NCBI GenBank assembly: GCA_021234155.1
Contig: JAJEKV010000005.1
Coordinates: forward strand, 12,825,787-12,889,786
DNA length: 64,000 nt
Direction of reading: 5' to 3'
Source: Isoetes taiwanensis
Taxonomy: Eukaryota > Streptophyta > Lycopodiopsida > Isoetales > Isoetaceae
A program made the translations under genes and the position numbers. Below are positions 13,038-47,450 of the stretch, one piece after another. A model generated the notes under the pieces. It had not been told where the DNA came from. It searched no databases and saw only the letters and a list, made by a program, of their open reading frames with translations. Position 1 is the first letter of the stretch, and every line of letters starts with the position of its first letter.

Positions 13038-13733
13038 ATGCTCCCAGACAAATATGGTGACTTCTCTTATGTTTTTGACAAAGTCAGGGCCAGCAAACTC
13101 CCAGAGCATCGTCCATATGATTGTCCTATTGATTTGCAGCCGAAGACGCCGCCGCCGTATGGTCCGATATATGGTCTATCTCCCGCTGAGTTGAAGGTTT
13201 TGCGGGATTATATTGAAGAGAATCTAGCCACTGGCTTCATTCGACATTATCAGTCCCCTGCTGGAGAGCCTATCTTATTCGTCAAAAAGAAAGATGATTC
13301 GCTGCGTCTGGTCGTTGATTATCGCGATGCTTCTGATTTTGTGCTTGGTGGGATCATGTCACAGGAGGGGGATGACCATGAATTACATCCAATCGCCTAT
13401 CACTCAAAGAAGTTTCAGGCTGCTGAAATCAACTATCCCATTTATGACAAGGAGTTGTTGGCGATAGTGGATTCTTTCGAGGAGTGGAGACGTTTTCCGG
13501 AGGGATCTCCTTATAAGGTCACAGTCTACACAGATCATCGAAATCTAGAATATTTTCAGTCTGCTCACGTGCTCAACCGTCGCCAGGCCCGGTGGCATAC
13601 TCAAGTATTATCCCAGATTGATTTCGTGATCAAGTACCGTCCTAGATCCCTCCAAGGGAAGCCCGATGCCTTGTCTCGACACTCCTACCTTGAGCCCAAG
13701 CTAGGTGATCCTGCATTTTACCAGCAATCATAA
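13038..13733 (+). pseudogene. Chromovirus RT N-terminus fused to RNase H by internal deletion
   Basis: The 231-codon frame begins in the reverse-transcriptase fingers and keeps [20 protein letters not shown] followed by VDYR. It then jumps directly to DASDFVLGGIMSQEGDDHEL, the start of RNase H. RNase H continues with the KELLAIV and YTDHRNLEYF motifs and the linker KPDALSRH. The whole RT palm, including the catalytic F-x-DD box (about 150 residues in relatives), is absent, yet the frame is preserved across the junction. The frame ends at a TAA at 13731-13733 that interrupts the normal pol polyprotein, since the same frame resumes just after it. It cannot encode an active polymerase. Confidence 0.85.
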
Positions 13734-13763
13734 GTTATTCTAGGGCGTGATCGGTTCCAGCTT

Positions 13764-14519
13764 ATGGCCCTCACTTTGTTTGAGAGGCCTCATGATACGG
13801 CCTTGTTGGAGTCTGTTCGAGCATCTCTGCCTCTTGATCCATTGGCTCAAGATGTATTCTCACACCTTGGCTCTGCATCATCTTCTCAGCAAATGCGATC
13901 AGACTATGATCGTTTTGAGGTTCGAGATGGACTCATATTCTATGATGGGCTTCTGTATGTGCCAGATGGTGCTTCTAGGCTTTGGGTTCTCTAGACTTGC
14001 CATGATTCACCTATGGTCGGACACTTTAGAGTAGCCAAGACTCTTGAACTTATTAGTCAAGAGTATTGGTGGCATGGGCTTCGTCGCTCTGTCGAAGCTT
14101 TTATTCGATCCTGTGATATCTGCTGTCGAGCGAAGGTCCCAAGACATCTTCCTCATGGCCTTCTTCAGCCACTGCCGGTACCAGATGGACCTTGGAAGAG
14201 CATTTCTATAGACTTTATTCCGGAGTTGCCAGTCTCTCGGGGTTATGATGCCATCATGGTTGTTGTTGATCGTTTCTCTAAGATGGCTCATTTTATTCCC
14301 TGCAACGTCACCATCACCAGTGAAAGAACAACGGATCTTCTTCTTCGTGAAGTAGTCAGACTTTACGGCTTACCCGATACTATCGTCAGCGATCGTGGAC
14401 CACAGTTCATCGCAGGTTTTTGGAAGTGGCTTTTGGAGTTATTGCATATCGACCGCTTAATGACATCTGGTCATCATCCAGAAAGTAATGGGCAGGTGGA
14501 GCGCACTAATCAGACTTGA
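13764..14519 (+). pseudogene. Chromovirus integrase (zinc finger and DDE core)
   Basis: This continues the same frame as the RT/RNase H piece, with one in-frame TAG just before 14000. It shows the H2C2 zinc finger (HFRVAKTLELISQEYWW, then FIRSCDICCRAK) and an apparently complete DDE triad. The Asp residues lie in SIDFIPELP and VSDRGPQF, and the Glu in [11 protein letters not shown]. The frame ends at 14519, where about 5 extra bases (TGACT) within the NQTLEQYL motif shift the frame. Integrase would insert the cDNA into the genome. Here it is separated from the C-terminal domain by the frameshift. Confidence 0.85.
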
Positions 14520-25143: not shown

Positions 25144-25232
25144 CAGAGAAATAGGGAGTAAGGCTAAGGGAAAACAATGTCAATACTTTGGTACAGCAGA
25201 GAACGTGCCCAAATGGTAGTGACATTTTTGGC

Positions 25233-28836: not shown

Positions 28837-30233
28837 TCAACAGAGAAGCTCCTTATAGACGATATTTTTAGTATGCCTCGATGTATTCTCTGGTGAGAGG
28901 AGGATGAGTGCGTCTTCTCTCTTCCGCATGCGAGTAAGAGCCGTGTATAATTGGCCATGTGCAAATACATCGGTACGCAGGTCAATGACAACGCGATCCA
29001 ATGTCAGCCCCTGGCAGCTATTGAAGGTGGTCGAATAAGATAAACGGAGTGGCAATTGTCATCTGTGAATGGTCCAGGGCCGGTTCTCTGGTTGATAGAA
29101 AAAGTCAGTTCTAGAAATCGGGTATGTATGTGCATCGTCCTGAGATGCCTCGTCTAGTACTTTCACCATGACAAATTTTGCGTGCATTGACACGACCATA
29201 ACTCTTGCATTTTTTTACCAAACCCTTTTCCATATCCAACCGTTTCATAATGCGGCATATGGCCCCCACTTTAAGCTTCAACTCATGGTTGGGTATTCCG
29301 GAATGTGTGAAGTTATTAAGGAAATCAGAGTTTGCAAAAGGGTGGTCGTGTATGATTCCGTCTTGCTCGGTGATGTGGTCATGACTATAATACGATTTGT
29401 CACGACTAGGAACTCTATCAAGAATGCGATCATTGAAGCTATCAACACTCTTATTAATTGTCGACAATGTATTTCGTGTCTTACATGAAATTGGATTTCG
29501 CAGTATATCGGGTGGATATAAAAATTCAATGATATCTTCTATGCTAGTAGTTATATTAAATATATCTAGTGAGACTGTTGACTCCTCCCAATTTTCTTCT
29601 ATGCGATCGACAAAATGCATTAGTTCAGGGTCATCTGTATTACGGATCGGTTCTTCCAATCTCATTACACGAAAAGTCTGCCACAGTGATGAGGATTTTA
29701 TAGATGCATTATATGCTGCATTTCTCCCCCCTCCCTTTACAACAGGCGCCACTTGTCTAAAATCTCCAGAGGCAATGAAATGCTTGCCTCCAAAGGGAAG
29801 ACTGTTCTTGCATAGTCGTTGTAATAGATGATGGGTGCTTTCTATGACAGCTTTATTGGCCATTGGAAATTCATCCCAGATGATGACCTTAGCTGCAATG
29901 AGATCTGCTACTCCAGAATCATGTTCTATCATCGAATGAAGACCTGCATTATTTTCTTCTACGGGAATTTGGAACAACGAGTGGGCTGTTCGTCCTCCCG
30001 GGTATTGGAGACCTGCTAATGCTGTCGTACCGCATGGAAGAACTATACCTTGATTGGTTCGTATCAACAGGCATATGCAATTTAGAAGGAATGTTTTACC
30101 CCTGCCGGCCTTTCCATCGATGAACAAAGGTTGGTTGCTTTCTAGGGATTCAAGCCATTCCCGAACGAAGCTGTATATCTTTTGTTGGTCATTTTTCATT
30201 ATGCTCGTCATTTGCGTTACTTCATCTAAGTAC
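28837..30233 (-). pseudogene. Helitron Pif1-like helicase domain
   Basis: The main frame 29111-30211 shows Walker A (FIDGKAGRGKTFLLN), the DEFPMAN form of Walker B, and SGDFRQVAPVV. Further conserved blocks follow (SLWQTFRVMRLEEPIRN and a degraded region before LKVGAICRIMKRLDMEKGLV). A frameshift near 29115-29170 leads to another frame for the C-terminal motifs (YSTTFNSCQGLTLDRVVIDL, then HGQLYTALTRMRKREDALIL) ending at 28837. This would be the 5'-3' helicase that unwinds DNA during rolling-circle transposition. The open frame extends upstream of the ATG at 30211 to the insertion point at 30233, where it once joined Rep. Confidence 0.9.
30229..30233. repeat. Target-site duplication AGTAC (left)
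   Basis: AGTAC stands immediately before TGTGACGTCC, the first bases of the left LTR, and recurs exactly after the right LTR at 43596-43600. A 5-bp duplication is the norm for Ty3/gypsy integrases. Confidence 0.9.
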
Positions 30234-31901
30234 TGTGACGTCCCCTACTCATATACGGTGCACTCACCGTATACAAACAGGAGTTCATCCCCCATACCAG
30301 CTCCATGCCGATACAGGGCCCTCCACATATCACTGCAACCGTGACGGGTTCCAGTGGGAAGAGTGAAGGGGTCATTTACCCCGTCTCCCTCACGGTCTAC
30401 CTAGCTGCGGAAGCGTAAACATACATGTCAGTATATAACATAAGCACATAGCCACCTCGAAGGGTGGTCCATCACGTCTGCATAAACAAGGTGAGCACAA
30501 TACATATGGGGAGTTCTACCCAAGGCTCAGACTCAAGGGAATGACCTGCCGGCTTGGGTCTCCGGAGATCATTGCGCATTTAATTCATGGCAATGGATTT
30601 GGTGGCATAAGAACATGGCGTGGGGTTGTCCCTCCATCCGCCCCTCCCTGTACACACCTTGCGAGTAGGTTGAAAAGTGTTGGGACCCGATCAGAGCCAG
30701 CCGGATGCATAGCCGAAAGGGCTATTCCTGGGTTCATCCTCCCAGTTCCGATGGGGCAGGTAGGGACCACTCCCTCCAGAGATCTACCTGCTGACTCAAG
30801 GTGACTAGAGGGCCACTGCCCTTATTCAACTGAACCCACTGGAAAGTGAACACCACTTCACGGGTGTCGAGCCCATGCCTTGCCCACACGCAGTGGCAAG
30901 CCATCAGACCTAGTCACAATGATCCCTGGTAGGCTTTACACACCAGAGGGATCGTTCAAGAGTCAGGACGGGAACCTCCTTCTCGGCCCGGCCGGCCCCT
31001 TCACCCACAACCGGTGTGGCTCTCAGACACAAAGGCGAATCTATTGTGTGCTAGAGAGGCTAATCTAGGAGCATCTACTACCAAGCTTTAGGTCTCTACC
31101 CCCCTTCCCAATACAAGGAGTTCATAGAGATACATCATCCACATACATCATAAGAGACTAAAGAACAAGATCTAATCTATGTCATAGAGTTAGGTTCTTT
31201 AGTTAGAGGCTGGTATCTAGGGATCTAGAAGGCTGTTATGGGCAATTTAATAGGCTAAACCTACTGATTCTATGACTGAAATAGGGTTTAGACTATCTAA
31301 CCAACCAAATACCCCGATCCTTGGGTGGCTCCTCCCCGACTGAAGCTCGACCATCCCTTTGAGGACGCCGAATCAAGGAAAACTAAGGATGCAATTCTCC
31401 CAAGCAGAAGTTCTGGGAGGGCGGTTTTTGGCTGTTGAGGCAGCCAAAACAGAGTTCTAAAGCCCTAAAATCGAAAATTGGGCAAGTTAGGGTTTCCCAC
31501 CCTATATAGACAAGGGGTTGGTTAGGGTTTCCAATTATCCTCTTTTGGCATGTGGGATAATTGGAAATGGGCCCACTTGCCTTTAAGGGCTAGGTGGCCA
31601 AATGTGCACACATGGAAATGTGTGCCCACATTAATGTGTACATTGGAAAATGTGCACATTAATTGCACCTATGGGTGTGGCCCACTTGGCATGAAGTGTC
31701 CACTTGGAATGTGTGCCCACATTAATGTGTACATTGGAAAATGTGCACATTAATAGTTGCACCTATTTCTGGCGAGTTGCCCTCTAGGGCTACCCACCTG
31801 GCTACACGCTAGCGCGCATTATCGCCACCCAGTGGGCGTGCGCGATGTGGCAAGGCGATGCGATATACGTCTTGGGGCGTATACGTCTTTGGAACGTCAC
31901 A
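30234..31901 (-). repeat. Left LTR (3' LTR of the element)
   Basis: 1668 bp from TGTGACGTCC to GGAACGTCACA, matching 41917-43595 along its length. It includes a tandem pair of a 48-bp phrase (31617-31664 and 31708-31755) containing ACATTAATGTGTACATTGG. The minus strand immediately outside is a polypurine tract. Confidence 0.92.
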
Positions 31902-31914
31902 TTCTCCCCACCTT
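31902..31914 (-). other. Polypurine tract of the H3-carrying retrotransposon
   Basis: The minus strand reads AAGGTGGGGAGAA directly before the LTR start TGTGACG. This is the plus-strand primer for reverse transcription and confirms the minus orientation. Confidence 0.75.
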
Positions 31915-32777
31915 GAATTGATGCTGTCCGCAGCATCGTGGGTCTCCCCACCTTGGGATCAACCTAATCTGCAATCAACCTGATACATACGATAACTACC
32001 ATAATCCCTACACATTTATTAAGATTACCTTAAGGTAATATTTTTAGGACATTATCACAACATTATATTATGAAATACTTATCACTTCATAACATCATTA
32101 AAACAGGTTACCCCATAATTCACTTAACATGACAATTAAGTTTATCAAAATTAAAATTAACGTTCGAGGTTTCTTCATTCCTTGCAACACATTCAAACAA
32201 AATTTGTGTTGCAAGTCTTAAATAACTTCGACCTCCTTGCCCCTCGGGAGCTCTATTGGCTCGCAGTCGACACTACGTTAGTACCATTTAATTATTAATA
32301 AAAATTTTGGTTATATGGTGACCACCCCACCTATCTACATGGATGCATGGCTAATCTCCCTGGGCCAGGAAGAGGGTGAATCTTCCATTATGGCGTGGAG
32401 ACAGCCCTATATGCCTATATGCCGCTCATGCCTACACCCTAGTTGCAAATGGCGTGGAGGATAGGTCCTTCAGGTATGTGGGGCGTGAAGGCCTGATTCC
32501 TCCTATCAAAGCATATATGGGGCTAGAGGTGCTTTTCCTATCGGTGCATTCCTTCATGACCTCCTTTCTCGAGGTCGTCTACTTCCGTGGGGACGTAAGT
32601 AGACTTTCTAATCTACCTTCCACTCGCCCAAAGCGAAAACGCGGTCATGCCTACATTGACATTGCACCACGCCCTAGAGATCACCGTAGTGGTCCCATCA
32701 TCGGTAACAACGCATGCGACCCTACTCAAAGATAGGTTGCATGCGTGGAGATTAATCTTAATTACACAAGAATTAAC
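31915..32777. other. Non-coding 3' region of the retrotransposon
   Basis: Between the polypurine tract and the chromodomain-like tail. Mostly AT-rich, with no supported gene; the plus-strand frame 32376-32735 has no domain. The length (about 860 bp) is large for a gypsy 3' untranslated region. Confidence 0.5.
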
Positions 32778-33415
32778 CTACACAAATCGACATGCCCGAG
32801 CCGATTTCTTGAGGAGATGACCTTGCCGCCCCATTGCTCCATAAACTGTGGATCTTTGCTTTCCTAAATCTTTCTTAAGTACCCACGTCGCGTCTTCCAC
32901 CGGTAAGTGTTTCCACTTGACCAAATCTTTGGAGGAATTCGATCTCCTCGTTTTTCTTGAAAGCTTTATCAAGAATCATTCGGAACTATTTCCAGCTGCT
33001 CCTCCGTCATTTCCAACAATGTTGGAGAATCCAAGACTTCGTCTGGATTTGGAGTATGCTTCTTCAACAAACTCACGTGGAAGACCTTATGAATCTTTAG
33101 GTGTGCTGGCAAGTCTAGCTTGTAGGATTGATTACCTACTCTCTTGACTATTCTGAAAGGTCCAGCCCACCTTGGAGCAAGCTTCTTGCAATTCCCGATC
33201 CTGAGCTTCGCCTGCTTCACCTTGATCTTGAGCCAAACATCATCTCCAACTTTGAACTCTCTTACTGTTCGATGCTTGTCGGCGATGCTCTTCTGACGAC
33301 TTCTTGCTGCTAGCAGATAACCTCGAACTTCTTCCACAAGCCGCTGCATATCGGCCAACATCTGGCCGAAACTTCCACTTTTGACGGGGTTGTGCCAAGT
33401 ATCCGAGTTAGGCAC
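32778..33415 (-). pseudogene. Integrase C-terminal domain and chromodomain-like tail
   Basis: The frame at 33415-32969 reads ADKHRTVREFKVGDDVWLKI, then APRWAGPFRIVKRVGNQSYK and IHKVFHVSLLKKHTP, the typical gypsy GPY/F integrase C-terminus. After a frameshift, 32972-32778 carries DLVKWKHLPVEDATWVLKKD, the core of a chromodomain (KWKxLPxEDATW). This puts the element in the chromovirus branch. Frameshifts separate the pieces. Confidence 0.85.
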
Positions 33416-33886
33416 TGATAGCCGTAATTGATCATAAACGGCGACATTTGGGATGATTCCTGCTTGGTGCTATTGTATGCAAACTCCACCAAGTGAATAA
33501 ATTCTTCCCACATACTTTGCTTATTCCAGACATAGTTTCGTAGCATGTCCTCTAAAATCCTGTTGGTCCGCTCCGTCTGGCCATCCGTCTGAGGATGATA
33601 TGCCGTGCTCATGGATAGCTTCGTCTGGATTGTCGCAAAGAGGTCTTGCCAAAAGGCGCTCATGAACTTCGGATCCACGGCCGGAGATGATCTCCCTTGG
33701 CATGCCGTGAAGCTGAAGATCTCTTTGGTGAAGAGCTTTCTTTGTATCCATAGCTGTATCTGTGGTCCCGCAAGGCACAAAATGTGCCATCTTAGACAAC
33801 TTGTCGACCACCACTACCATCAAGGCATCCTTCCCTCTTTTGTTCTTGGGAGTCCCGTGATGAAATCCATGCCGATTACCTCCCAC
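33310..33886 (-). pseudogene. Integrase catalytic core
   Basis: Two overlapping frames together cover the core. One reads KNKRGKDALMVVVVDKLSKM, AHFVPCGTTDTAMDTKKALH and LHGMPREIISGRGSEVHE. The other reads FWQDLFATIQTKLSMSTAYH, PQTDGQTERTNRILEDMLRN and VEFAYNSTKQESSQMSPFMI. The second catalytic Asp of the DDE triad (normally in I-S-D-R) is now Gly (IISGRG), and the Glu region is reached only after a frameshift. The protein is therefore inactive. Confidence 0.82.
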
Positions 33887-33899
33887 TTAGCGTTTGGCA

Positions 33900-35540
33900 C
33901 CGCTAATGGCTCCAATGCCCCCGGAATTAAGCTGCTCCGCCTTTGTCTGCCGACATAGCCGGGCATTCCTTGATGTAGCGGGCCACCGCTTCTTCATTCC
34001 TCGGCCAATAATAGCTGGCGCACTTTGAAATATATTTTCATGAATCCCGCATGGCCAGCTATTATTTTGTTAAGCGTGTCGTGGAGGATCAATTTCCTTA
34101 CACCTGATGATTCTGCACGCACAACTTGTTCTTATGGTATAACAGGTTGCCTTCCTTCTTAAAATGCTTAAAGGCCTCCCCGCTCCTTATCCGTTTCTAG
34201 CCTCCTAGAGAGACTTGCCCATACTTCCTTGAAATCCACGTAAATTTGGCAAGGACTCTTCAATCTTTTACCAAAGTCGCTGGAGATCGCCGAAATTGCA
34301 TTGCAATGCACTCTAGTTGTCGGGGATGCCTTGAAAGCGCATCCGCTACCACATTGAGCTTCCCCGCTTGTAGACTATATCAAAGTCGTACTCTTCAAGG
34401 AACTCCATCCACCTTCTCGCGCTCGGGTTGAGGTGTGGTTGCGTGAATACATATTGGAGGCTCGGTGGTCTCAGTATCCAACCGGAACTTCCTTCCCAAA
34501 AGGTAGTGCCTCAAATTCTTAATGCCACGACAACCTTAAGCAATTCTTGATGATGCGTGGGGGGTGGCGTGTTTGGCGTCGTTCATCTTCACGGAATCAT
34601 GCGCTACCACGGCGCTCTTCTTGCATAAGCACTGCACTGCTGTAGCTATCTTACTCGCGTCGGTCATACAAGCTTATCTTTCTGCGGGTCCGGCAGGAGG
34701 GTTAGGACTGGGGCTGTTGTTAAAGCTTCCTTCAACAATTCAAACCACCTTGGGCTTTCTTGTGCCAATGCTCTGCCCAATCTTTCACTTTCTCCGCCCG
34801 CGTCAAGTGCGTTGGCGGGGCTGCTATCTTGGCAAAGTTCTTCACGAACTTCTCAGAGTACCACTAGGGCGAGAAAACCGACTTCATGCACATTCTTGCC
34901 CGACCCTTTGAATGGCGCTTCAATCTTCGGGATCCGTCGAGATGCCTTCTGGCGAGATCATGCCCTAGATACTCTACCTTCTACGTTCTTGAGTGGCGCC
35001 GACAACTTGGCGCATAACCGGTGCCTCTTCAACTTCTCCAAAGACTCTTCTCAAGTGTTGTACATGCTCTTCAAGGGATCTGCTATACACCAAAATGTCA
35101 TCAAAGAAAACAATCACAAAGGTGTCTAAGAACTCCCTCAAGATGTCGTTCATGAGCCCTCATGAACGTTAAGGGGCATTCGATAAGCCGAAGGGCATTA
35201 CCGCGTGAACTCATAGTGCCCATACCGCGTTTCACCAAGGGTCTTATGGATATCTTCTTCCTTTATCCCGATCGATGATAACCCGACCTTAAGTCGATTT
35301 TGGAGAAGATCTTTGCACCTTTGAGCTGATCCATCAAGTCATCTCGATCCGGGGGAGCTGCACTTGTTCTTAATGGTGTGCTTGTTCAACCGCCTATAGT
35401 CTATGCACATCCTTAAATCGCCATCCTTCTTCTTAACGAAGAGAATGGGCGCCCAAATGGCGTAAACACTAGGTCTAATAAAACCTAGGTCAAGCAGCTC
35501 ACGCGAATCGCTTCTTTAGCTCCGGCAATTCTGCGTTGTC
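33900..35540 (-). pseudogene. Reverse transcriptase / RNase H region, heavily indel-damaged
   Basis: Read across several frames, the minus strand near 35480-35280 gives text of the pattern [43 protein letters not shown] and TLGETRYGHYEFT, the conserved fingers and palm of gypsy RT. Downstream phrases (33990-34600) correspond to RNase H and the tether before integrase. No frame stays open for more than about 60 codons, so indels occur roughly every 100 bases. This is a dead polymerase. Confidence 0.75.
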
Positions 35541-36375
35541 ATTCTATATGGAGCCTTGCTCGTTGGCTTTGTTCTGGTTCGAGTGCAATCTCGCACTCAA
35601 CTCCCCTATAGGGAGGAAGCTGCTTGATCTCATCTGGAAAGAGATCATGGAACTCCGTGATCAGCTTAGCTACTTGCTTCGGCAACTTGCTGAGCACCTT
35701 GTTTTCTTTGCTTCCTTCCGATTCCGGCTCACTACTCTCAAGCTTGAAGATGTATGCCATCTGCTCGCTCTTGATGCACTTGAACAGTCTCTTAGAAGAC
35801 ATGCACTGCATGATGGGGACAACTTCTTTACCTGTGATTTCGATGATCTTGCCGTCGGGCGTTGGGAAGGTCACTTTTCGCTTTCCACAGTCGATAATGG
35901 CCCCTGCTGGCCCAAGGTACTCCATTCCTATGATCAAGTCATACTTGCCAATGCCCATTACTTCAGCCCCCATCCGGATATTAATCCGGCAAGTCGATGT
36001 CGGTTAATTCTCTTTGCCCGCCGCGCCTCCATCGCACCACTTGCTAAGACAACGGGTTTTGGCTTTGACTTTAGCGGCTTCAACTTCAACATTTGAACCA
36101 TGCGGGGATGCAAAGTTATGGCTACTTCCCGAGTCTATCAAGACTATGAAGGACTTGGCCTTGGCCTTCCCCTTTGTGGAAATTACCTTATCCGGCTCTC
36201 GCATTGTTCTCGTATCTATTGCGGCAAGGATATGACACTCACCCCGAATGTAGTCGGCGGGCTTCTTCGGGCCGCCGTCGTCGCCGGACAGAAGGCCCCA
36301 ATCTCCCAACTCCGCTAGAGCCGCACTCATGACGTAGGGGCGGTTTGCTGTCCCTATGGCCTCGGCTGGAAGCAC
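35539..36375 (-). pseudogene. Retrotransposon aspartic protease
   Basis: The frame at 36375-36004 contains KAKSFIVLIDSGSSHNFASP with the catalytic D-S-G of pepsin-like retroviral proteases. The frame at 35973-35539 contains YDLIIGMEYLGPAGAIIDCG, the typical second half, and runs on into the linker leading to RT (HDLFPDEIKQLPPYRGVECE). A frameshift near 36000 splits the two halves. Confidence 0.85.
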
Positions 36376-36604
36376 CTCGGCATATTTGCTTTTCTATGCA
36401 CTCCGCCTCTTTTCCTTGGGCATCGCCGCAAAGGATCGTCTTGCTTTGGAGTAGTTTGACCCCTCCCGCTTGTCCTTGAAGGACACCCGCTTCTTCTCCT
36501 GCTTTGCTTCCCCGGTTTCCACCATGTGGGGCTCTAGCTGGGCACGGATTTGGTTGCCCCGGGGCTATAGCTTCCGCCGCCTTGCCTTTATCCCCGAAAA
36601 TCAC

Positions 36605-37500
36605 TGGCTTACGCCCGCTATTCCAGGGTCCGACCCCGCAAGCTTATAGCCTTGGACTCGCCCGATCTTGTCCTAGGGTTTATTGCTCTCACAAGCTTAT
36701 GGATCTCCTCATTCAGCCCCTCGATATAGCTTTCCCTTTGCATGCTTCTCTCCCAACCGGCACATACTGACCTTAGCCTCATGAATTCCCTCGTATATTT
36801 TCTCGACTGATTTGTTTCCTCGTTGGAGCCTATAGAACTCTTTTGCATCATCTTTGGACTTATGTTCCCTTGGGACGTAATGGCTTTGAAGGCTTTTTGC
36901 AAACTTCTTGAACTTACAAGCATCCCTCGCTTAAGCCATGTGCCTTTGCATAACCCTTCCACCAAATCCGTGCGGCTCCCTTCAAGTTGGCTGTTGCCAC
37001 TCTTCCTTTGTCTTTATCCTTCATGCCATAAGCATTGCCGTACTCACTCATCTCGTCCGACCATGCCTCTGCTTCCAATCGACGACCTGTTCTCCCCGAA
37101 GCTGTTCCGATTCAAGGCCTTCCATACATTGCCCGGTCGCGGAATCTACCTTCTTACGGTAGTCGAGGCCCTGGTGTCCCTTTTGTAGATCCATCACGGG
37201 GTGTTTCTACGCCTTCCCTCTTGGTGTTCCTTTGCCTTCCATCCGTTCGGTCACGGGCCTGCTCTTCCTCTTCACCGTCCCGAAGTCACGAAATCGAGCT
37301 TGAGTGAGGAGGAATCCGAGCTGGGGATCTCCTTCTCTTGCTCCTCTTCTTGTCCCTTCCCGTTTCCGAAGCTGATGCTTGTGGCAATTGAGCATTGCCC
37401 ACCAACCCCAACCTCTCCTTGTGCGGCTAATAGAGCCTTTATCGTTCAAGGTCCGTCCTCATCGGGATATCTCCTCCTCTGGGGTCATGGGTTCCATTTC
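36605..37500 (-). pseudogene. Retrotransposon gag
   Basis: A retrotransposon gag-type helical region is clear: SRKYTREFMRLRSVCAGWER followed by QRESYIEGLNEEIHKLVRA, plus an upstream 'FKAITS...' stretch. The likely start is near 37500 (MEPMTPEEEIS). A zinc knuckle is not readable because of frameshifts between 36600 and 36400. Gag would form the virus-like particle. Confidence 0.75.
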
Positions 37501-37778
37501 TTCAAATAAGTTCCTTGTCGGGGGTGGTCTGGGCGGGGTCTGTTCTTCCCTAAGGTCTTGGCGTTGTCGCCTCGCTGAGCCTAGGCCTCTAACTGCATAC
37601 ACAAGTGATTCATGGCTATATGGTTAGTTTTACTTGTTCCCTCGCATTGTTTATGGTTTGTTGGCATAATTGTGGAGTAAAATATATCAACAAAACATTT
37701 AAAGTGCAACAGAGATTATATTCATATATATATTATATAATATTTTAGTACAAAAAGTCTCCGGGATCAAGAGTCTAA

Positions 37779-39324
37779 CTAGTCTTGAAATCCGCAGAAA
37801 GGCGGGTTGTCCTCAAGGAACTTTTTAACTTGGGCCGCCCCTACCGAAAGTGACCCAAGTTCGATGATGCTTGCCGACGAGCCTCCCTGTATGGCTCTCA
37901 CCAGGTCTTCTACCCCGCGGTGGGATGTAAGGGCCGCGATCCGCGCCAATCTCGCCTCGACGCCGGTGGGGTATGGCCGAAGTCGAAGAGGTCAAGTGCC
38001 ATTGTCCTCTTGACTAAGACAAAGATAGTCGGCGTTTGTTGCTATTCGAGCATGCACGCCGAGCACGAGAGTGCAATCGGCATGAACACTCCTTCTTCAC
38101 CTCGGGACTGAACTTGCGGTGTATTACCGCTATTCTCCCCATCCATGCGGCGGCAAGTAGTACTGGCGACACATGTCGTTGTGTGTCGCCAGAAGCTTCT
38201 CCGCTTGTTTGGCCTCCGACTCTGTGCCGCGGCGTATTTCGTCGACCTCAATTTCAGTCAGCTCCTGTAGTCTTCAATTGTCGCGATCCGAGGCTCCTCG
38301 AGGTCGATTCCTTCTCCTTTTGGCGGGGTGGTGTCGAAGGACTTCGGCATTAGGATGCTCGTGGTCTTCCCACCGGATCCCCATCTCGTTCTTGGGCGAG
38401 GAACTCTCCTCCTCGTTGGCGGCTCCATTTCGTCCATCATTTGCACGATGTTCTTTGTAGGCACGGATATGGAGGTCGTCTCCCACGGCCAGGTGTCGGC
38501 CTCCCCTCACTTGAAGCCGGAAAGTCGAGGCTCCCGGACGATGAAGTCGCCCATGCCTGGGTCGGGCCGCAGGTTGGTGGAGCAGATTCGTCCAACTCCG
38601 AGCTCCCTCTCCCCGCATTGGGAAGGTTGCCCGGATGTTTTGGGAGTAGATACTCCTCTCGGTTGATGATGATAGGGGCTAGGCTTGTGATGCCTAGCCA
38701 GAGTGGGGAGCAACTCGATGCCCTGGCCGGCTCGCCGAAATTGATCAGCTCCTGCCTCGCTGGGCGCCGTTCTTAGTCTGAAGTCGATTTCGCGGTATCC
38801 TTTCGTTGTCCGATTCCTCTTCATCCTCTCTTGCTTCTCGTTTCTCGTTGATCGCAAGCACGACATCCCGCTTCTTCCCTTACCTTTGCTATGGGGTCTA
38901 CCTCCATCGGAGGGATAGAGGTTGCCCCCATCGGGTTCTCGTGTGATTGGGATAAGAAGATGGCTAGGGCTGCGGTGTAAGAGAAGTACTTGGTCCTATT
39001 GGTCCGTCGGGGACCATGTAGTCGAGGCGACCCTCGCCTTGTTAGTCAAGTACTTGGCGATGTTGGGGACATCGCCCAAGGTCGCTTGAAGGGATGGGCG
39101 AGGGGAACTTAAGTATCCTATGCAAGGGGGACTTGGACAAGGGAAGGTCCTACCCTAGCTTGAAATTCTGCTAGCACCTGCCTATATGCTTGGGTTGCAT
39201 TTAGCATGGCTTGGATGTCGATTTCTTTCCCAAAGATTTGGAAGATGTCATTGACATCTGCCTCTAAGAAGACATGGGCACCGGCTATTTGTACCATCGC
39301 CCAAGTCGGCCAGAAGTGGGCCAT
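37779..39324 (-). pseudogene. Extra retrotransposon gene A, unidentified, between H3-like gene and gag
   Basis: A gene-like stretch of about 515 nominal codons, broken by frameshifts, with its own TATA box 115 bases upstream of the ATG (39324). It starts MAHFWPTWAMVQIAGAHVFL and continues EADVNDIFQIFGKEIDIQAM, then LNATQAYRQVLAEFQARVGP. Later readable pieces include ATLGDVPNIAKYLTNKARVA, YFSYTAALAIFLSQSHENPM, a charged Arg/Glu/Lys-rich middle, LTEIEVDEIRRGTESEAKQA and a C-terminus SIIELGSLSVGAAQVKKFLE ending at a TAG at 37779. It is rich in helix-forming residues in the first and last parts. I do not recognise a family. A faint likeness of VNDIFQIFGKE to the H2B phrase VNDIFERIAGE is not enough to call it a histone. 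It lies in the sense orientation of the element. Confidence 0.5.
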
Positions 39325-39438
39325 TGATCTAACAAAGAAGGGAGTATCAAACGGATGCAGAAGCGCCTCAGGGAGCTGAAAGATCGCCTAAGCAGTGGAG
39401 AGCAAATTTGCAGGGTGCCAATTGAGAAATGGGGGACT

Positions 39439-39446
39439 TATTTATA
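39439..39446 (-). promoter_or_regulatory. TATA box of extra gene A
   Basis: TATAAATA on the minus strand, followed 7 bases on by CCCCCATTTCTC. The H3-like gene has the same arrangement (TATAAATAG, then CCCCCATTTTTC). The two promoters therefore look like duplicates of one module. Confidence 0.6.
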
Positions 39447-39626
39447 GAAAAGGGGGAAACCCTAATTTTTGGATGACCTAGAATTTACTGAGATTAGGCA
39501 ATTCTGACCTATTAAGGAATGCAATTGCAAGTTTGAAGACTATTTCTAGGGTTTGAGCGCGCTAAGGACAACTACTGAACCTATTGTACAATTTGGAGAT
39601 CATTTGGTGAAGAATGGTATTTGCGA

Positions 39627-39691
39627 GGTCTCACGCGTTCCGCACTCCATTTTGAGAATGTCGAAATCTGTCCTGGCGCGACGTGTGAGAC
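39627..39691. repeat. Palindrome copy A (65 bp)
   Basis: Arms GGTCTCACGCGTT-CGC and GCGCGACGTGTGAGAC flank a centre with GTCGAAATCTGTCCTG. It lies 181 bp upstream of the TATA of gene A and is one of four related imperfect inverted repeats in this element. Confidence 0.8.
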
Positions 39692-39822
39692 ATGGGTCCT
39701 AATTGGGCTAGGCTTACTCAATTTAAGTGATCTAAGGCTGTAATTCCATTAAACTCATCGAGTTAGGCAGAATTGACCCCTTACTTAGTCGATTTGGAGC
39801 TGTTTTGGGCATTTTTGGGCAT

Positions 39823-39890
39823 GGTCTCACCGCGTTGCGCCCGGCCATTTCGAGATTCTAGAAATCTGTCCCCGGCTACGACGCAGAGAC
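39823..39890. repeat. Palindrome copy B (68 bp)
   Basis: Arms GGTCTCACCGCGTTGCGCC and GGCTACGACGCAGAGAC flank the centre CATTTCGAGATTCTAGAAAT. About 130 bp upstream of copy A and related to it. Confidence 0.75.
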
Positions 39891-40033
39891 ATCGTCTCAA
39901 TTTTGCTCAAAGCTCCAATTTAATCAAAACAAAAGCTAGGGATCGATATCTTAACCTATTTAAACAGGGTTTGACACTTTATTTACACAAAAATTTCTTT
40001 ATATTAACAAAATTTTCCAGTTATTTACAAAAT

Positions 40034-41281
40034 TCAAGGGCGTTCTCCCTTGATGTGCCTGGCAAGATACATATCCTGCCTCATGAGGGTAACCCTCTTC
40101 GCGTGCACCGTGCAGGCCGTTGAGTCTTCAAAATGCTTTACTATATTTGCTTCGGCCGCCTCCTGTAAACACAACAAAGATCTCGTTGGGGTCCGCAGCG
40201 CGTACGTGTTATATTCTTACATAACCAGCGGACCAAAGCGTTGAAGCGGTGCGGGGGATCAAGAGTCCGTAGCTCCTCTGGAAGTGCCGGATTTCCTTGA
40301 GGGCTCTGTTCTCCAACTTCTTCTTGCCGGCCCGCTTCTTTCCTGGTGCTCTGGGAGGCTTGGGCTTTGGTGGAGGGGGCTTCAGTGTCTGACTCTTCGT
40401 CGGGTGTCCGCCTTCAATCGTTCTCACCTGGTGCTCCTGGTAATAGGCATTGTAAGCCTCCCACTTCGCCATGTAAGCGTTGTGCTCCTTGATCCTCTTC
40501 GATAGACCTTGGCCGGGGTCTATCACATATGCCTCCCGTTGTGGCCGTGGGGGCCTTGACCCTATCCCCGTCGGCAGGAGCGGTGGGAGCCGCCACCTTG
40601 ACCCTCCTCTGCTCTTGGGGGCATGCGCTCGGGGACCTCTTCCTCCAAAGGGGCTTTGAAGAGCTTGCCCGTCTGCGCCCGGACGCGTAGTCTTGGTCGA
40701 ATTAAATCGTCGATTGGAAGGCGGGGTCTCTTCGCTGATGGTTTGGTTGATTACGGGACCCGTGCGCTCAAACAACAGCCTTCACAACTTTCTGCCCGGC
40801 TGCCTTGATGGCTTTGGCCTTTCTCTTCTTCGGCCCGGCGTAGTGAGGTCGTCTTCCGACTCTTAGGTCCCTGCTCCGTGGCGTTCTTTAGCTTCATACT
40901 TGCTTATAGGCGTGCAAGATCGGCTTCTTCATCCGGGGTGAGCCGGCCGAGCTGGCGCTCTTCTCTCCCTTGCTCCCTCGGTGTGGGTCTCATTGCAGTG
41001 TTGCTCCCGGCTATTGGCTGCCACAATGCGCTCCCTTGGCTCCTCGGTCCTCTCCTCCTCTGCGATGTCCTCTAGGATTTGATGCATGATGTCGGCGGCC
41101 GCCGCCGCCTATGATCTCGGTGTGGTCGCTCCGATCCGATCCCCGCATCTTTCTCGAAGAGGAATCGCCTTCAGGAAAAGGCGTTCTTGTAGGACCCTCG
41201 AAAGAGGCCAGAACAGCTGGGGCTATTTGGATGATTCGCCGCGTGAGGCTTCCTTTGATCATTTTTTGTGCGGGCCATCAT
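40034..41281 (-). pseudogene. Histone H3-like gene carried by the LTR retrotransposon
   Basis: The minus strand begins ATG-ATG-GCC and reads M-A-R-T-K, the invariant start of the H3 tail, 94 bases after a TATA box. A long Arg/Lys/Pro-rich region follows in shifted frames (SETPPSNRRFN, KPPPPKPKPPRAPGKKRAGK). Then comes an H3 alphaN helix, ALKEIRHFQRSYGLLIP (compare ALREIRKYQKSTELLIRK). A shift at a run of five C (40253-40257) leads to LQRF, a TAA at the position of a conserved Gln, and EYNTYALR. The fold then closes with [15 protein letters not shown] and [20 protein letters not shown], ending ERP-stop exactly where H3 ends (RGERA). All H3 core helices are thus represented. The tail/linker is about 300 codons, far longer than the 40-residue H3 tail, and loop 1 has an extra residue, as in divergent or centromeric H3. 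Three or more frameshifts and one nonsense codon make this copy a pseudogene. It would have been a chromatin protein made by the element. Its role is inference only. Confidence 0.82.
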
Positions 41282-41374
41282 TTCTTTGCCGACGGAGCTA
41301 AAGCGCCCGTAAGATCGCCTTGATAGTCGCAGCGAAGTTCTAGGGAAGAACGAGGGAAAAATGGGGGTCTAGGT

Positions 41375-41383
41375 CTATTTATA
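41375..41383 (-). promoter_or_regulatory. TATA box of the H3-like gene
   Basis: TATAAATAG on the minus strand, followed by CCCCCATTTTTCCCTCG and, 94 bases on, the ATG-ATG. It implies transcription of the extra gene separately from the LTR. Confidence 0.62.
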
Positions 41384-41455
41384 GGGTCAAGTTTTAGGTC
41401 AACTGTTACTACCTTTTTGGGTTGTCTAAAGCACCTAAAACACCTAATTAAGCAA

Positions 41456-41523
41456 GGTCTCACACGTTGCGCCCAGCCCGATTTCGAAAATGTCGAAATC
41501 TGTCCTGGCGCGACGTGTGAGAC
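41456..41523. repeat. Palindrome copy C (68 bp, best conserved)
   Basis: Outer arms GGTCTCACACGTTGCGCC and GGCGCGACGTGTGAGAC pair almost fully. The inner arms GATTTCGA and TCGAAATC pair perfectly around AAATG. The whole unit could fold as a long hairpin. It lies 73 bp upstream of the TATA of the H3-like gene. Confidence 0.85.
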
Positions 41524-41640
41524 ATGGTGGGGTCCACTATTAAATTAACATGTAACATGCTAAATCTACTGATTCTTAGCTTAAAATTAGAATTATCAAG
41601 TTATTTTACAGTATTTTACAACTTGTGTCAAAATTTGAAT

Positions 41641-41699
41641 GTCTCACACGCTATACCCGATTTGAGATTCTAGAAATCGTCCCGGCGCCGACGTGAGAC
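41641..41699. repeat. Palindrome copy D (59 bp)
   Basis: Arms GTCTCACACGC and GCGCCGACGTGAGAC flank the centre GATTTGAGATTCTAGAAATC. It lies 118 bp upstream of copy C, so each extra gene has a pair of these units at similar spacing. Confidence 0.75.
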
Positions 41700-41902
41700 C
41701 AACTCCTACTTTTTTGGATGTTGGCTCATCAATTTTTAATCTTTTTACATTTTTATTCATTTTAACTGTTACTAGCTTAGCATACTACAAAAATGAGAAA
41801 AAAAACAAAAAATTTTCTCATTTTTTTTTCGTGGTTTGAGGATCCTATCAAGTTAGTGCTCTCGGGAACATGGCTGCTTTGCTCTTGGTCTCCAAGAACA
41901 TA

Positions 41903-41913
41903 GCTCGATACCA
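41903..41913 (-). other. Primer binding site (initiator tRNA-Met)
   Basis: The minus strand just inside the 5' LTR reads TGGTATCGAGC, close to the plant tRNA-iMet complement TGGTATCAGAGC. It is 3 bases from the LTR end and confirms the direction of reverse transcription. Confidence 0.8.
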
Positions 41914-41916
41914 CCG

Positions 41917-43595
41917 CGTGATGTCCCCTACTCATATACTGGTGCACTCACCGTATACAAACAGGAGTTCATCCCCATACCAGCTCCTCCATGCCGATCT
42001 GAGGGGCCCTCCACATATCACTTTAAAACCGCGGCCGGGTTCCGGTGGGAAGAGTGAAGGGGTCATTTACCCCGATCTCCCTCAGGGTCTACCTAGCTGC
42101 GGAAGCGTAAACATACATGTTAGTATATAACATAAGCACATAGCCACCTCGAAGGGTGGTCCATCACGTCTGCATAAACAAGGTGAGCACAATACATATG
42201 GGGAGTTCTACCCAAGGCTCGGACTCAAAGGGAATGACTAGCACGGCTTGGGTCTCCGTGAGATCATTGCGCATTGAATTCATGGCAATGGATTTGGCTG
42301 GCATAAGAACATGGCGTAGGGTTGTCCACTCCATCCGCCCCTCCTGTGCACACCTTGTAGAGTAGGTTGAAAAGTGTTGGGACCCGACTGTAGCCCGCCG
42401 GATGCATAGCCGAAAGGGCTATTCCTGGGTTCATCCTCCCAGTTCCGATGGGGCAGGTAGGGACCACTCCCTCCAGAGATCTACCTGCTGACTCAAGGTG
42501 ACTAGAGGGCCACTGCCCTTATTCAAGCTGAACCTTTGGAAAGTGAACACCACTTCACGGGTGTCGAGCCCATGCCTTGCCCACACGCAGTGGCAAGCCA
42601 TCAGACCTAGTCACAATGATCCCTGGTAGGCTTTACACACCAGAGGGATCGTTCAAGAGTCAGGACAGGAACCTCCTTCTCAGCCAGTCTGGCCCCTTCA
42701 CCCACAACCCGGTGTGGCTCCTCATTACCAGGCGAATCTATTGTGTGCTAGAGAGGCTAATCTAGGAGCATCTACTACCAAGCTTTGGGTCTCTACCCCC
42801 TTCCCAATACAAGGAGTTCATAGAGATACATCATCCACATACATCATAAGAGACTAAAGAACAAGATCTAATCTATGTCATAGAGTTAGGTTCTTTAGTT
42901 AGAGGCTGGTATCTAGGGATCTAGAAGGCTGTTATGGGCAATTTAATAGGCTAAACCCTCTTGATTCTATGGACCTGAAATAGGGTTTAGACTATCTAAC
43001 CGACCAAATACCTGATCCTTGGGTGGCTCCTCCTGACCTGAGCTCGACCATCCTGCTGAGACGTTCGAATCAAGGAAAACTAAGGATGCAATTCTCCCAA
43101 GCAGAGTCTGGGAGGCGGTTTTGGTTTGTTGAGGCACCAAAACAGAGTTCTAAAGCCCTAAAATCGAAAAATTGGGCAAGTTAGGGTTTCCCACCCTATA
43201 TAGACAAGGGGTTGGTTAGGGTTTCCAATTATCCTCTTTTGGCATGTGGGATAATTGGAAATGGGCCCACTTGCCTTTAAGGGCTAGGTGGCCAAATGTG
43301 CACACATGGAAATGTGTGCCCACATTAATGTGTACATTGGAAAATGTGCACATTAATTGCACCTATGGGTGTGGCCCACTTGGCATGAAGTGTCCACTTG
43401 GAATGTGTGCCCACATTAATGTGTACATTGGAAAATGTGCACATTAATAGTTGCACCTATTTCTGGCGAGTTGCCCCCTAGGGCTACCCCACTGCTACAC
43501 GCGCTAGCGCGTCGGCCCAGTAAAGTGGCGCAGCGCGGCGGTTTGGGATGCGGTATCGTCTTGGGGCGATATACCGTCTTTGGGCGAACGTCACA
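41917..43595 (-). repeat. Right LTR (5' LTR of the element)
   Basis: 1679 bp, homologous to 30234-31901, including the tandem 48-bp phrase at 43311-43358 and 43402-43449. It ends GAACGTCACA before the AGTAC duplication. The other end has drifted (CGTGATG instead of TGTGACG). Confidence 0.92.
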
Positions 43596-43600
43596 AGTAC
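43596..43600. repeat. Target-site duplication AGTAC (right)
   Basis: Exact copy of 30229-30233, immediately outside the right LTR. Confidence 0.9.
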
Positions 43601-43657
43601 AAATCCATGGTCGGAAAATTTTCGCAATTCATGCATGACATCTCTTCCAAGACGAGG

Positions 43658-46445
43658 CTAAAGTTGGAGACCAAATGCCATGATGTTGGTACTATATTGT
43701 GTTAGAATGTTGTTGATTAAATGAAGGGATTCATTAAAAGCGATTGTTTCATCATTTGGGTACTCGTCTAGCAGGTCAACACTCATTGGTACTTTGAACC
43801 TGCTCCATAGCTCAATTGCTGGACCTTGGTCTAGCAGTAACATGGCAAAAAGAAACCGTAGTTGTGTGGGACTCAATGATAAGGAAGCAGCTTCTTCCAT
43901 CACTATTATAGCCTCGTTATGTGCCGCAAGCAACCCTTCTGCCTCGGCAGCTTGCTGGTACGTTTCATATTGTTGTCCATTGACGATTTTCAGCTCATCC
44001 CATGTCCTTGCAGGGCGGTGCAGCAAAATTTGTCTCAAGTAGAATGCCTCTCCCACTCGAGGCAATAACAATCGTATTCTACAAACTATTGGCTGCCTCA
44101 CTCTTTTCTTCACTATGTTGGTCACGAATCCTTCTTGTTCTTGTTCTACATAGTTCCCAGGTACGTTTACCAAGGCAGAATTGAACGCTATCAATGTGTG
44201 TTGTTCGTGATACTGAATGTACGTGAACGTATCAAACCCAGCATCTAAAGGACGTAAAAAGTATCGATCTAACAATGATCGTGTGTTAGATAGTGGTAGA
44301 TGTAATGGTAGACATTTAACAGCAGGACACTTATTAGTTATATCATAGGACATTGTCCTCCATGCCGCCTCCGTTGCGGATAAATACCGTGCCCTCAAAT
44401 AATCCTGTATGTCATCCCTGGGAGGTCTTTTATGAACTTGGTCAGATGAAATGTTCTCTGGTGACCCATTTATGGTATTCTTCGTTACTGATGGTTGACC
44501 TGCGACACGCTCCCCTTCAGTATTGTTTTTCGACGTGCTTTCTGCAGGCTCTTCATGCTGGTTGCTTAATGACGACGGTATGAATGATGAATGCCTCTCT
44601 TGGGTAACTCGAAAGCTGCCGCTGTCGAATCCTTTATATATGTATCCATAAAGGTATGAGAATATATGTACTGTAGATGCTATATCCACCATAATGTGGC
44701 AGTCCAATTCATGGAGCAGAAATGCATTATATGGAACCACCCATACATCATCTATAGTTCTTCTCCTATACTGGACATAACCCTTTGAGTCGAGATATGT
44801 CGTTGGAGTGATATCCTTCGGATATTTGTAGCAACAGGTTGCACCATCCGGCGAGCATCTATGAGTATGCTTATGAATCATAAATTTTTGAACTTGCCCT
44901 CGAAGGATTTGGATCTGCGGAGGTAATTCGGGAGGAGATGATCTCATCGATGCATTCAGCAGTATCTCGGGCTCCGGTTAGCAGGACGAGGTGGGAATGG
45001 GGCAATCGCAGTTTTTGAAATTCTACGACTGTTATTACATATGATATCTGCTGAAAAAACTTATGAAGGAGCTCTTTTAACTGCTGCAATCTTCCATGGA
45101 AACATCGGACAACGAGCATAGGAACATCAGATGCATTTTGTCCGGGCATGAGAATGGCCTTTATTTCTGGCCAATCTGTATTCGTTGTCATGGTGATAAA
45201 CAAAGTTGGGCGGCCTTTTGCTCTAGACAGAGCCAATGCATCAGCAACTTGAATAGAGCACCACCTTTGACCTCCTAAGAAAGAGGATGGCAAGATAACG
45301 TCAGTTCGATCATCATTCTCTCGTTCCGAATAGTCCTCATCATATTGTATTCTCCTATTATGGAATGCCGATGTTCTAAAGTAATTCAATCGTGCATCTT
45401 CGACTCTTGAGTACATGTCAACCAAGTACTCTCCACAAAGACGACCAAGTTGGACAAATCGGTCTTCATGGAGCAACCTAGCCCTGTACCATTGTAACTG
45501 TGTAAGACCGTGTTCATTTCTGAGGCCCCAACCAATTGTGCCATGCGGGAATATGAGAGGGTATTGCAATGGCTCGTACATGGGATCAAGTATATTTACA
45601 AAGGTTGGTTCACCCTCGTTTCGTACCCAAAAGCCAGCAAGTCGAGGTGCAATATAGGCTGTATTGTTAACATCCACGATAGCTGCAATATCATCACTTG
45701 CAGTCGCACCTTGTATAGTTATATATGCCGATGGCATGTGCATGCTTCCCATTGTTCGAAGATTTTGAATAAAAGGGTTTACTTGATTAAGAATTGAGCC
45801 TACGATACTGACCCATTGAAATGGCACACTCTGACCTCTAGCATGTATATATCTCTCTGATTCATCGTACATGTACCAATGTATTGGATGACCTGTTTCT
45901 CCGCTGGCTCGTAGTCGATGATACGTTCGACCTGTTATGGTTACGGACGAAGGAAACTCTAAATCTACGAATTGTCCACTTACTCCAAGAACACTAAAGC
46001 AGAACAATCTATTTACCTTTCTCGCTAACCTTGCAAAGTCTGGTATGTTGTAGAGGTTATACAGTGCCACAGGGAGATGGGGTAAAGGTGGCAATAACCA
46101 TCTTCCATTGTTGCAGCAGAAACCATTTTTTTCAGTATTTAATAATGGAATTTGGCAATACGTGCATCTCTTATTCCATATATACATAGTATATCTACGA
46201 TTTATTGCCGAGTTCATGTGACGCACACGAGCTCGCCAATGCATCGAAGCCCACTCACTCATTGAGCCCTCACGTTGGTTTTTTGGCTGATTAGATATAT
46301 CCGAACGCGGCGTCATAATGGGTATGGAGGTCATGGATGAATCAAGAGAACAGAAGATGGTTGTGTTCACTGATGGGGCATCTACCCTAATATCCGTACA
46401 CGCGACATCTACCTCCATTTGTAAAGTATCCACATTTTCGCACAT
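43658..46445 (-). pseudogene. Helitron Rep (HUH endonuclease) region
   Basis: Two frames cover it. 46445-44871 (524 codons) has a C-x2-C zinc-like start (CTYCQIPLLNTEKNGFCCNN). The Helitron_like_N region follows (LQYPLIFPHGTIGW, YLVDMYSRVEDARLNYFR, IVDVNNTAYIAPRL). Next is the HUH block VVEFQKLRLPHSHLVLL with H-S-H in place of the usual H-A-H. A frameshift near 44900-44945 leads to 44947-43658. That frame holds KFMIHKHTHRCSPDGATCCY, the tyrosine block DVWVVPYNAFLLHELDCHIM and FSYLYGYIYKGFD. A long C-terminal linker (RRPARTWDELKIVNGQQYET, LDEYPNDETIAFNESLHLIN) leads to the helicase. Rep would nick DNA and stay bound through tyrosine. The open frame continued into the helicase before the retrotransposon landed. 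Confidence 0.92.
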
Positions 46446-46483
46446 ACCCCCACACAGGCGTTGTGATGTACATGCCTCCTCTT

Positions 46484-47051
46484 CTAAATTCGTATAACAC
46501 GATGTTTCTCTCTGTTGCTCTCTCTCTCTCTCTCTTGCTCACTTAGATCTTCAGAATGCCCCCTCACTCTCTCACAATTTCTCCCTCTATTTCCCTCATC
46601 ATCTGCTGAGGCCCCTATACTTGGCTCTTCAACATTGGTAAATTTGGTTGCTACTATCTTCTCCTCTACTAAGTTTGAGCTAGGTACCACACTTAGGGAC
46701 ATATAGCTGGCACCATCCACAACCATATTTTGCTCATTTATTCTTCCGGATTGGTGTTGCCTTGCACGTTGCCTCGCATATTCCCTAGCTCTCTCTCTCA
46801 CCCTCTGTCTATTTTCATCTACCAAACTTTCATAACGCTCTCTCTCTCTGTCGAAGTCTCTGTCTATCACCCTCAACTAAATTTGCACGACGCTCTCTTC
46901 GTCTTTGTCGAATTCTCTCCCTTTGTTCCCCAGATAAGTTTGCATAACGCTCCCTTTCTCTCTCTCGTTTCCTCTCTCCTCCTGTTGTCTCTCTAGATCG
47001 TCTAACAATCTGGACTCTATTTGTCCATGTAATTTGACTACTATTCTCCAT
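46484..47051 (-). pseudogene. Arg/Glu-rich N-terminal part of the Helitron gene
   Basis: From an ATG at 47051 the frame reads MENSSQITWTNRVQIVRRSR and then repeated charged units such as RYANLSGEQRERIRQRRRER and RANLVEGDRQRLRQRERA. A frameshift near 46870 continues to YESLVDENRQRVRERAREYA. Repeats of the type Y/R-A-N-L-x-x-x-x-R-x-R are common N-terminal extensions of Helitron Rep proteins. The stretch 46520-46540 contains a CTCTCT microsatellite that encodes the RERE run. It is separated from Rep by a stop or frameshift near 46445-46484. Confidence 0.7.
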
Positions 47052-47450
47052 CACTATCTTTATGTTATCCAAATATAAGTCTATATATAGATACGTATTA
47101 CGCAAGAAAATGAACACAAGTAAATTCTCTCTAATGTTGAAAAATAACTTATCAGAGGAAAAAAACTTATCTGTCGTCTTTTGCTATGTATGTTGAATCT
47201 TGCATCAATTGTCCTCGAATGTCATGCCCATTGGTAGCTGAAATCTTCATCTACTGAATAGAACATTAACTGATTAGGACATTGACACCTTAGATTCTGT
47301 AGACCTAAAAAAAGAAAAAGTTTTTCTACAAATCATCATAATACACAATCTAAAAAGACTATGATTTATGGAAGGAGCAAACTATTTCTTTTGTTTATAG
47401 GTGCAAAGATGGACACATCAATAAAAGTTCTTTTTCTTAAAATGGGCATC

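Follow-up and report, generated by a model that had tools for sequence, protein, structure and literature searches.

The window, meaning the whole stretch of 64,000 nucleotides analysed here, contains a 13.4-kb LTR retrotransposon with a Ty3/gypsy pol, which lies on the minus strand and is inserted within a Helitron helicase gene (Table 1). Self-comparison of the window gave a single long direct repeat pair, the two LTRs, both of which start with TGTGACG, and the 3' LTR terminates with CGTCACA. The 5-bp target-site duplication GTACT was found at both ends of the element, and joining its flanks as an empty site gave an open Helitron helicase frame of 407 aa across the junction, with PIF1 (8.5e-45) and Helitron_like_N (1.7e-31) matched in the flanks, one on each side. 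The LTR pair, the GTACT on both sides and the restored Helitron frame indicate that the element is one complete minus-strand insertion. The Helitron Rep/helicase gene that it splits (43596-47183 and 28900-30233, minus strand) is composed of long frames with a few shifts.

The pol fragments of the element are in the order protease, reverse transcriptase, RNase H and integrase, the protease and RNase H matches being below the cut-off. For gag, no Pfam match was obtained in the element's own broken frames, and the gag-pol of the relative L027 gave matches to Ty3_capsid (1.6e-14), Retrotrans_gag and RVP_2. The stretch TGGTATCGAGC following the 5' LTR resembles what we take to be an initiator-tRNA primer site. 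Elsewhere in the window, a 1235-aa open frame (21475-25179, minus strand) rich in ankyrin repeats and bearing a PGG domain and an RNase H domain from another gypsy-type element (13023-13730, plus strand) were observed, and positions 13326-14153 matched the locus L026 at 91%.

On the sense strand of the element, the 5' LTR is followed by a hairpin pair, a TATA box, MMARTK, the pieces of an H3 fold and AATAAA, with gag lying later. The initial annotation had described a MARTK start, a basic Pro-rich linker, an alpha-N helix and the H3 closing helices on the sense strand between the 5' LTR and gag, and this was confirmed, with MMARTK, the Pro-rich basic stretch containing ALKEIRHFQRSYGLLIP and the closing helices sitting in different frames (minus strand, 41281->40034). 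The coding region had been taken to end at the exact H3 C-terminus; the C-terminal region of H3 is indeed reached, but the ending is GERP and not GERA.

The C-terminal 60 aa matched the Pfam Histone profile (PF00125) at 7.6e-11, above the curated cut-off, which bears out the histone assignment of the initial annotation, and matched H3/CENP-A chains at 3.3e-14. Neither the alpha-N piece (190 aa) nor the N-terminal piece (36 aa) gave a Pfam match up to E 1, and the alpha-N piece reached H3 at just 0.08. In frameshift-tolerant alignments against reference sequences, scores of 189 for Arabidopsis H3.1, 191 for rice CENH3, 168 for Arabidopsis CENH3 and 166 for human CENP-A were obtained, and the maxima for 40 dinucleotide shuffles were 55-67. 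The Pfam, chain and shuffle-controlled alignment scores thus place the histone match far beyond chance. The open-frame statistics of the broken copy are weak by themselves, since its longest frame was matched in 11 and its frame-switch count in 68 of 300 shuffles. Structure prediction from the single sequence of the 60-aa piece gave one long helix (pTM 0.38), and this model was set aside.

Table 1. Features of the LTR retrotransposon in the window, listed along its sense strand
Feature	Position	Strand	Basis
Complete Ty3/gypsy LTR retrotransposon, 13.4 kb	30234..43595	-	LTR pair, GTACT duplication, empty-site join
5' LTR, begins TGTGACG; then TGGTATCGAGC	41918..43595	-	self-comparison
Hairpin (imperfect palindrome), first of pair ahead of H3 unit	41637..41703	-	
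Hairpin, second of pair ahead of H3 unit	41450..41530	-	76-nt core 100% matched upstream of L029
TATAAATA box of H3 unit	41376..41383	-	105 nt ahead of MARTK ATG
Histone H3-like gene (type C), frame-broken here, open in relatives	40034..41281	-	profile match and frameshift-tolerant alignment
N-terminal piece MMARTK...	41174..41281	-	first ATGs (41281, 41278) downstream of TATA box
Linker and alpha-N helix, 190-aa open frame	40212..40781	-	open frame; frameshift-tolerant alignment
H3 alpha2-alpha3 and C-terminus	40037..40216	-	Pfam Histone and H3/CENP-A chain matches; stop at 40034
AATAAA	39978..39983	-	51 nt past H3 stop
Hairpin, first of second pair	39818..39896	-	
Hairpin, second of second pair	39620..39698	-	
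TATAAATA box of next unit	39439..39446	-	
ORF2, 68 codons open in window copy	39121..39324	-	no significant Pfam match
gag core region	36618..37083	-	nucleotide match to relatives' gag region
Reverse transcriptase fragment	35028..35207	-	RVT_1 5.8e-10
RNase H fragment	34470..34667	-	0.0097, below cut-off
Integrase C-terminal SH3-like domain	33056..33247	-	2.1e-21
Chromodomain-like stretch	32856..32924	-	PF00385 E 0.0069, 16.7 bits vs cut-off 25.1; frame-broken copy
3' LTR, TGTGACG...CGTCACA; purine-rich tract AAGGTGGGGAGAA just before	30234..31901	-	self-comparison

Only two TATAAATA boxes (41383 and 39446) are present on the sense strand of the element. A TATA box had been expected near 41350, and one exists, but at 41383. 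Four related hairpins of ~70 nt (41450-41703 and 39620-39896) form two pairs, each ahead of a TATA box, and the strongest of the four is 100% conserved upstream of L029. ORF2 is thus preceded by a second, promoter-like arrangement of a hairpin pair and a TATA box.

Over 1695 aligned columns, the two LTRs of the window element differ by 121 substitutions, of which 69 are transitions and 52 transversions, and by 26 gap events. These differences fall in clusters (variance/mean per 50 bp of 6.0, against a maximum of 1.95 in 5000 random placements) and increase with GC (Spearman 0.48, 42 windows), and a 305-bp identical run persists amid garbled GC-rich patches. The interrupted Helitron is much cleaner than the LTR element, with its left part spread over four long frames and its helicase part contained in a single one, which counts against old decay since the interrupted gene must predate the insertion. 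An old pseudogene as the simple reading is ruled out by the clustered, GC-linked LTR differences, the identical run and the cleaner Helitron. A genome paper consistent with this assembly describes an assembly of Nanopore reads with racon and pilon polishing and LR_Gapcloser gap filling (PMC8566536). Many of the stops and shifts in the window H3 copy may be assembly errors, and some may be real; patchwork assembly error is the best fit to the breaks, short of proof. LTR indel rates were dropped as proof that the gene was intact at insertion, because the LTR differences look like such patchwork error.

The genome searched comprised 1,658,258,908 bases in 1110 contigs, and both copy counts given here are lower bounds. 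With the Pfam histone profile, 8705 first-look candidates were obtained, and the best 150, which were scored, consisted of 15 canonical H3 (set apart by score; the eight of them that were read are all 136 aa) and 135 other non-canonical H3 folds. With the 60-aa piece of the window, 7146 first-look candidates were obtained, and all of the best 150, which were scored, had E <= 2.2e-24 with the window first, so that at least 149 further places encode H3 of the window's type. By hand count, 30 of these 150 are situated in frames of at least 400 codons. In one group of H3-fold copies, the match to query residues 14-68 continues beyond an in-frame TAG close to the end of H3; this resembles a further type or an extension at the C-terminus. 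The locus L057 is a host H3 gene with introns. No relative was found among the viral contigs, prokaryote genomes and plasmids scanned. A set of 5.8 billion proteins was uninformative, as it seems to be without eukaryotic histones (0 candidates shared three words, and H3 is universal).

Thirty-nine element copies were read and assigned to types A to D, 36 of them selected for score or long frames. Open frames of at least 305 codons were present in 31 of the 39, in a sample thus mostly selected for score or length, and the three copies read without such selection (L055, L056 and L058), which the search for host CENH3 turned up, are all broken. Types A and B (20 read, from the 135 non-canonical folds) gave 16 copies with frames of 367-494 codons and four with 108-159, and type D (six read) gave four with 438-471 codons, one with 305 and one with 150. 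The ten type C copies had been selected for their long frames; all have open stretches of 425-488 codons, and eight are open from MARTK to the end, seven beginning MARTKQTARK and one MARTKQTTRK. In seven of these eight, TATAAATA lies 109-111 nt before the MARTK ATG; the eighth has too little upstream sequence.

The type C protein consists of MARTKQTARK, a linker of ~300-340 aa and a diverged H3 fold, encoded by a unit with its own TATA box, and types A, B and D consist of an N-terminal region of ~330 aa and an almost canonical H3 fold. PF00125 was matched at 3.9e-39 to 1.1e-43 in all five type A/B ORFs scanned, and the N-terminal region of the A and B proteins gave no Pfam match when scanned. 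MARTK was found in none of the 26 A, B and D frames read and ARKS, which we take to be the silencing motif of the H3 tail, in one of the same 26 copies (L049, type D), seven of the 26 being cut short; ARKP was found in seven of the eight type C copies open from MARTK. The fold residues HAKRVT..D, presumably important for H3-H3' and DNA contact, are kept in the element H3.

The usual order in types A and B is LTR, H3 ORF at ~3.4-5 kb, gag at ~7.8 kb and then pol, with deletions in a few of the stretches (L021, L026). An LTR pair brackets the H3 gene in seven of the eight other elements tested (two type C and five A/B) and was not found for L017. The LTR matches are 1.0-1.7 kb long in six of these relatives and 245 bp in L033, with K2P values of 0.021-0.053; target-site duplications are exact in four, have 4/5 bases in two and are unread in one (L029). 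Among the H3 matches listed, a same-strand H3 match lies 3-12 kb upstream of 26 of the 150 best matches to the window's integrase piece (median spacing 6.8 kb over the 26 pairs, window included), and just three other pairs lie within 30 kb. These results show that in a Ty3/gypsy family a separate gene, placed between the 5' LTR and gag, encodes histone H3. The proposal that the LTR element itself carries the H3-like gene was therefore upheld by its same position in many copies, inside LTR pairs with target-site duplications, and by the purifying selection described below. The gene is not confined to the window copy, and its shared position within LTR pairs also speaks against a host H3 fragment inserted after integration.

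Several further features of these elements were observed. Two more ORFs of ~470 and ~170 codons lie between H3 and gag in A/B elements (L013:2906-4315(-) and L027:6649-7161(+)), neither with a significant Pfam match. The LTRs and gag-pol of types A and B align as DNA and their H3 ORFs do not (L009 against L010/L012), which suggests module exchange between elements. In L020, LTR-like sequence forms part of a direct repeat of 2.2 kb (95.5%) that lies on either side of the H3 ORF (oriented 1390-3624 and 7173-9424), with no room for gag-pol between the two.

Selection on the H3 gene was estimated as dN/dS by the Nei-Gojobori method. Median values for the fold were 0.044 in type A (36 pairs, 9 sequences), 0.014 in type B (15 pairs, 6 sequences) and 0.024 in type C (45 pairs, 10 sequences), with median dS of 0.6-0.8 behind them. 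For the N-terminal region, 0.110 was obtained in type A (26 of the 36 pairs usable) and 0.145 in type B, and for type C the linker gave 0.206 and tail residues 1-10 a pooled pN/pS of 0.023 (28 pairs, 8 sequences). As the copies share history, the medians describe selection on source elements and are not independent tests. The fold is under strong purifying selection in types A, B and C, the outcome of the dN/dS check between copies that the initial annotation had proposed, and the H3 gene is shown to travel with the element and to be maintained by this selection, measured in these three types. The short tail alignable to host H3 (36 codons) gave 0.50 from 4 usable of 15 pairs, indicating little constraint to keep the host tail. 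Synonymous sites are saturated (pS 0.84-0.96) in every fold comparison of A with B or of an element with the host, and A and B nevertheless keep 81-85 of 98 fold residues, which is counted in favour of an H3 gene that would be old within the element lineage.

A tree built from 38 folds put types A, B and D on one side of a branch (91/82), adjoining canonical H3, and joined type C to the CENH3 sequences of rice and Arabidopsis (95/89). Placing all four types in one clade cost 7.2 log units and was not rejected (p-AU 0.088), so a single capture remains compatible; a grouping that separated CENH3 from A, B, C and canonical H3 was not rejected either (p-AU 0.080). Loop 1 had been read as slightly longer than in canonical H3, a hint at centromeric variants. 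This reading was wrong, as loop 1 of an intact type C relative (L029) aligns to host H3 without a gap and is of canonical length, and a gap of 1-2 residues is required there to align the CENH3 of rice and Arabidopsis or human CENP-A; the tree nonetheless puts type C next to plant CENH3, with the alternative groupings not rejected. Host CENH3 was not found in the genome searches, the matches being element copies, canonical H3 and the intron-bearing H3 gene.

It is proposed that the element H3 pairs with host H4 and would become part of nucleosomes, in the likeliest case those on the DNA of the element itself or at its insertion sites. Because types A, B and D have a replaced tail and the long linker of type C sets its tail apart from the fold, host silencing marks would be poorly carried or displayed on these nucleosomes. 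The most probable advantage would be escaping or shaping silencing, with tethering of the integration complex second. Judged from the encoded proteins, H4 pairing, nucleosome entry and an effect on silencing through replaced or separated tails have about an even chance of being right. Purifying selection on the fold says nothing on where the element H3 acts. Against silencing escape, the type C tail retains two residues open to marking, K4 and K9, and ARKS is present in one D copy. Against the explanation as a whole, the window copy is broken, and most copies read were selected for score or long frames. A fuller version is offered tentatively and seems possible though on balance doubtful: the family may supply its own H3, captured at least twice (from canonical H3 and from a CENH3-like gene), giving nucleosomes that host silencing marks would not be properly written on or read from, and type C might combine a mark-bearing tail with a chromodomain able to read it as a self-contained chromatin-targeting system.

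The fold could instead serve for docking, holding the integration complex to host nucleosomes via H4 or histone chaperones. The H3 tail is the usual ligand of a chromodomain, so type C would offer such a ligand in a Ty3/gypsy element with a chromodomain-like stretch (below cut-off), but the H3 gene is separate from the integrase and has its own TATA box in type C, and we consider this unlikely. Coating or compaction of the element cDNA in the particle or at nuclear entry, with chromatin effects secondary, would agree with the conserved fold and finds a loose parallel in the histones of marseilleviruses and bracoviruses; as H3 alone makes no nucleosome and no other histone match was found among the other element ORFs and frames scanned, it appears improbable. 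Type C might also be a centromeric histone encoded by the element, one that derives from CENH3 and directs the element to centromeric chromatin. The grouping with rice and Arabidopsis CENH3 and the motifs LLIP and RVTLM, which we take to resemble CENH3, point this way, but the canonical length of loop 1, the long branches in the tree, the alternative groupings that were not rejected, the failure of the genome searches to find host CENH3 and the canonical-like types A, B and D make it quite improbable as judged from the sequences.

The gene could also be passive cargo: the element would have acquired a host H3 cDNA on a single occasion and spread it along with itself to no benefit of its own. 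Capture of host cDNAs is known from LTR elements and other transposons. The fungal H3L case is described as transduplication (PMC3538342). The low fold dN/dS (0.014-0.044) at the dS given above, the four diverged types with long open frames and the conserved TATA box and tail of type C nevertheless leave this strongly disfavoured and very unlikely. An assembly artefact, or chance host H3 genes near LTRs, is hardly credible: the garbled patches clustered in GC-rich stretches of the window copy and the LR_Gapcloser step mentioned in PMC8566536 would allow it, but separate open-frame copies, target-site duplications and the tight spacing to integrase stand against it.

Few host proteins are as conserved or as tightly controlled as histones. 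The maintenance of H3 in many copies by a retrotransposon family gives a direct handle on how elements may alter nucleosomes, beyond suffering or reading chromatin marks. The family also represents natural H3 variants under selection with tails detached or replaced, and might give rise to new H3 variants of the host. Counts of histone genes in such genomes may partly include element genes.

Compared with known systems, the family shares the Ty3/gypsy gag-pol with chromoviruses, whose integrase chromodomains read histone marks, and differs from them in also encoding a histone; the chromodomain-like stretch after its integrase is below the cut-off. Plant LTR elements with captured host genes exist, such as maize Bs1, which likewise has host-derived coding sequence inside an LTR element; in Isoetes the gene is separate, conserved, of several types and present in many copies. 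Virus-encoded histones, such as the marseillevirus doublets and bracovirus H4, are also cases of a mobile genome bringing its own histone, with other histones and other replication. Type C groups with plant CENH3 in the tree and has a diverged fold, but its loop 1 is of canonical length and ~300-340 aa separate MARTKQTARK from the fold. Within the text searched of the Isoetes genome papers, the word 'histone' is absent. Among open-licence papers, one precedent for a transposon-borne H3-like gene was found, namely H3L, which a hAT DNA transposon carries in Pyrenophora tritici-repentis and of which 10 long and 16 short copies are reported in the reference genome (PMC3538342). That fungal element, like the Isoetes family, is a transposable element that carries and multiplies an H3-like gene; it is a DNA transposon in a fungus with near-identical copies (PMC3538342), whereas the Isoetes family is a plant LTR retrotransposon with several diverged types, long N-terminal extensions and measured purifying selection.
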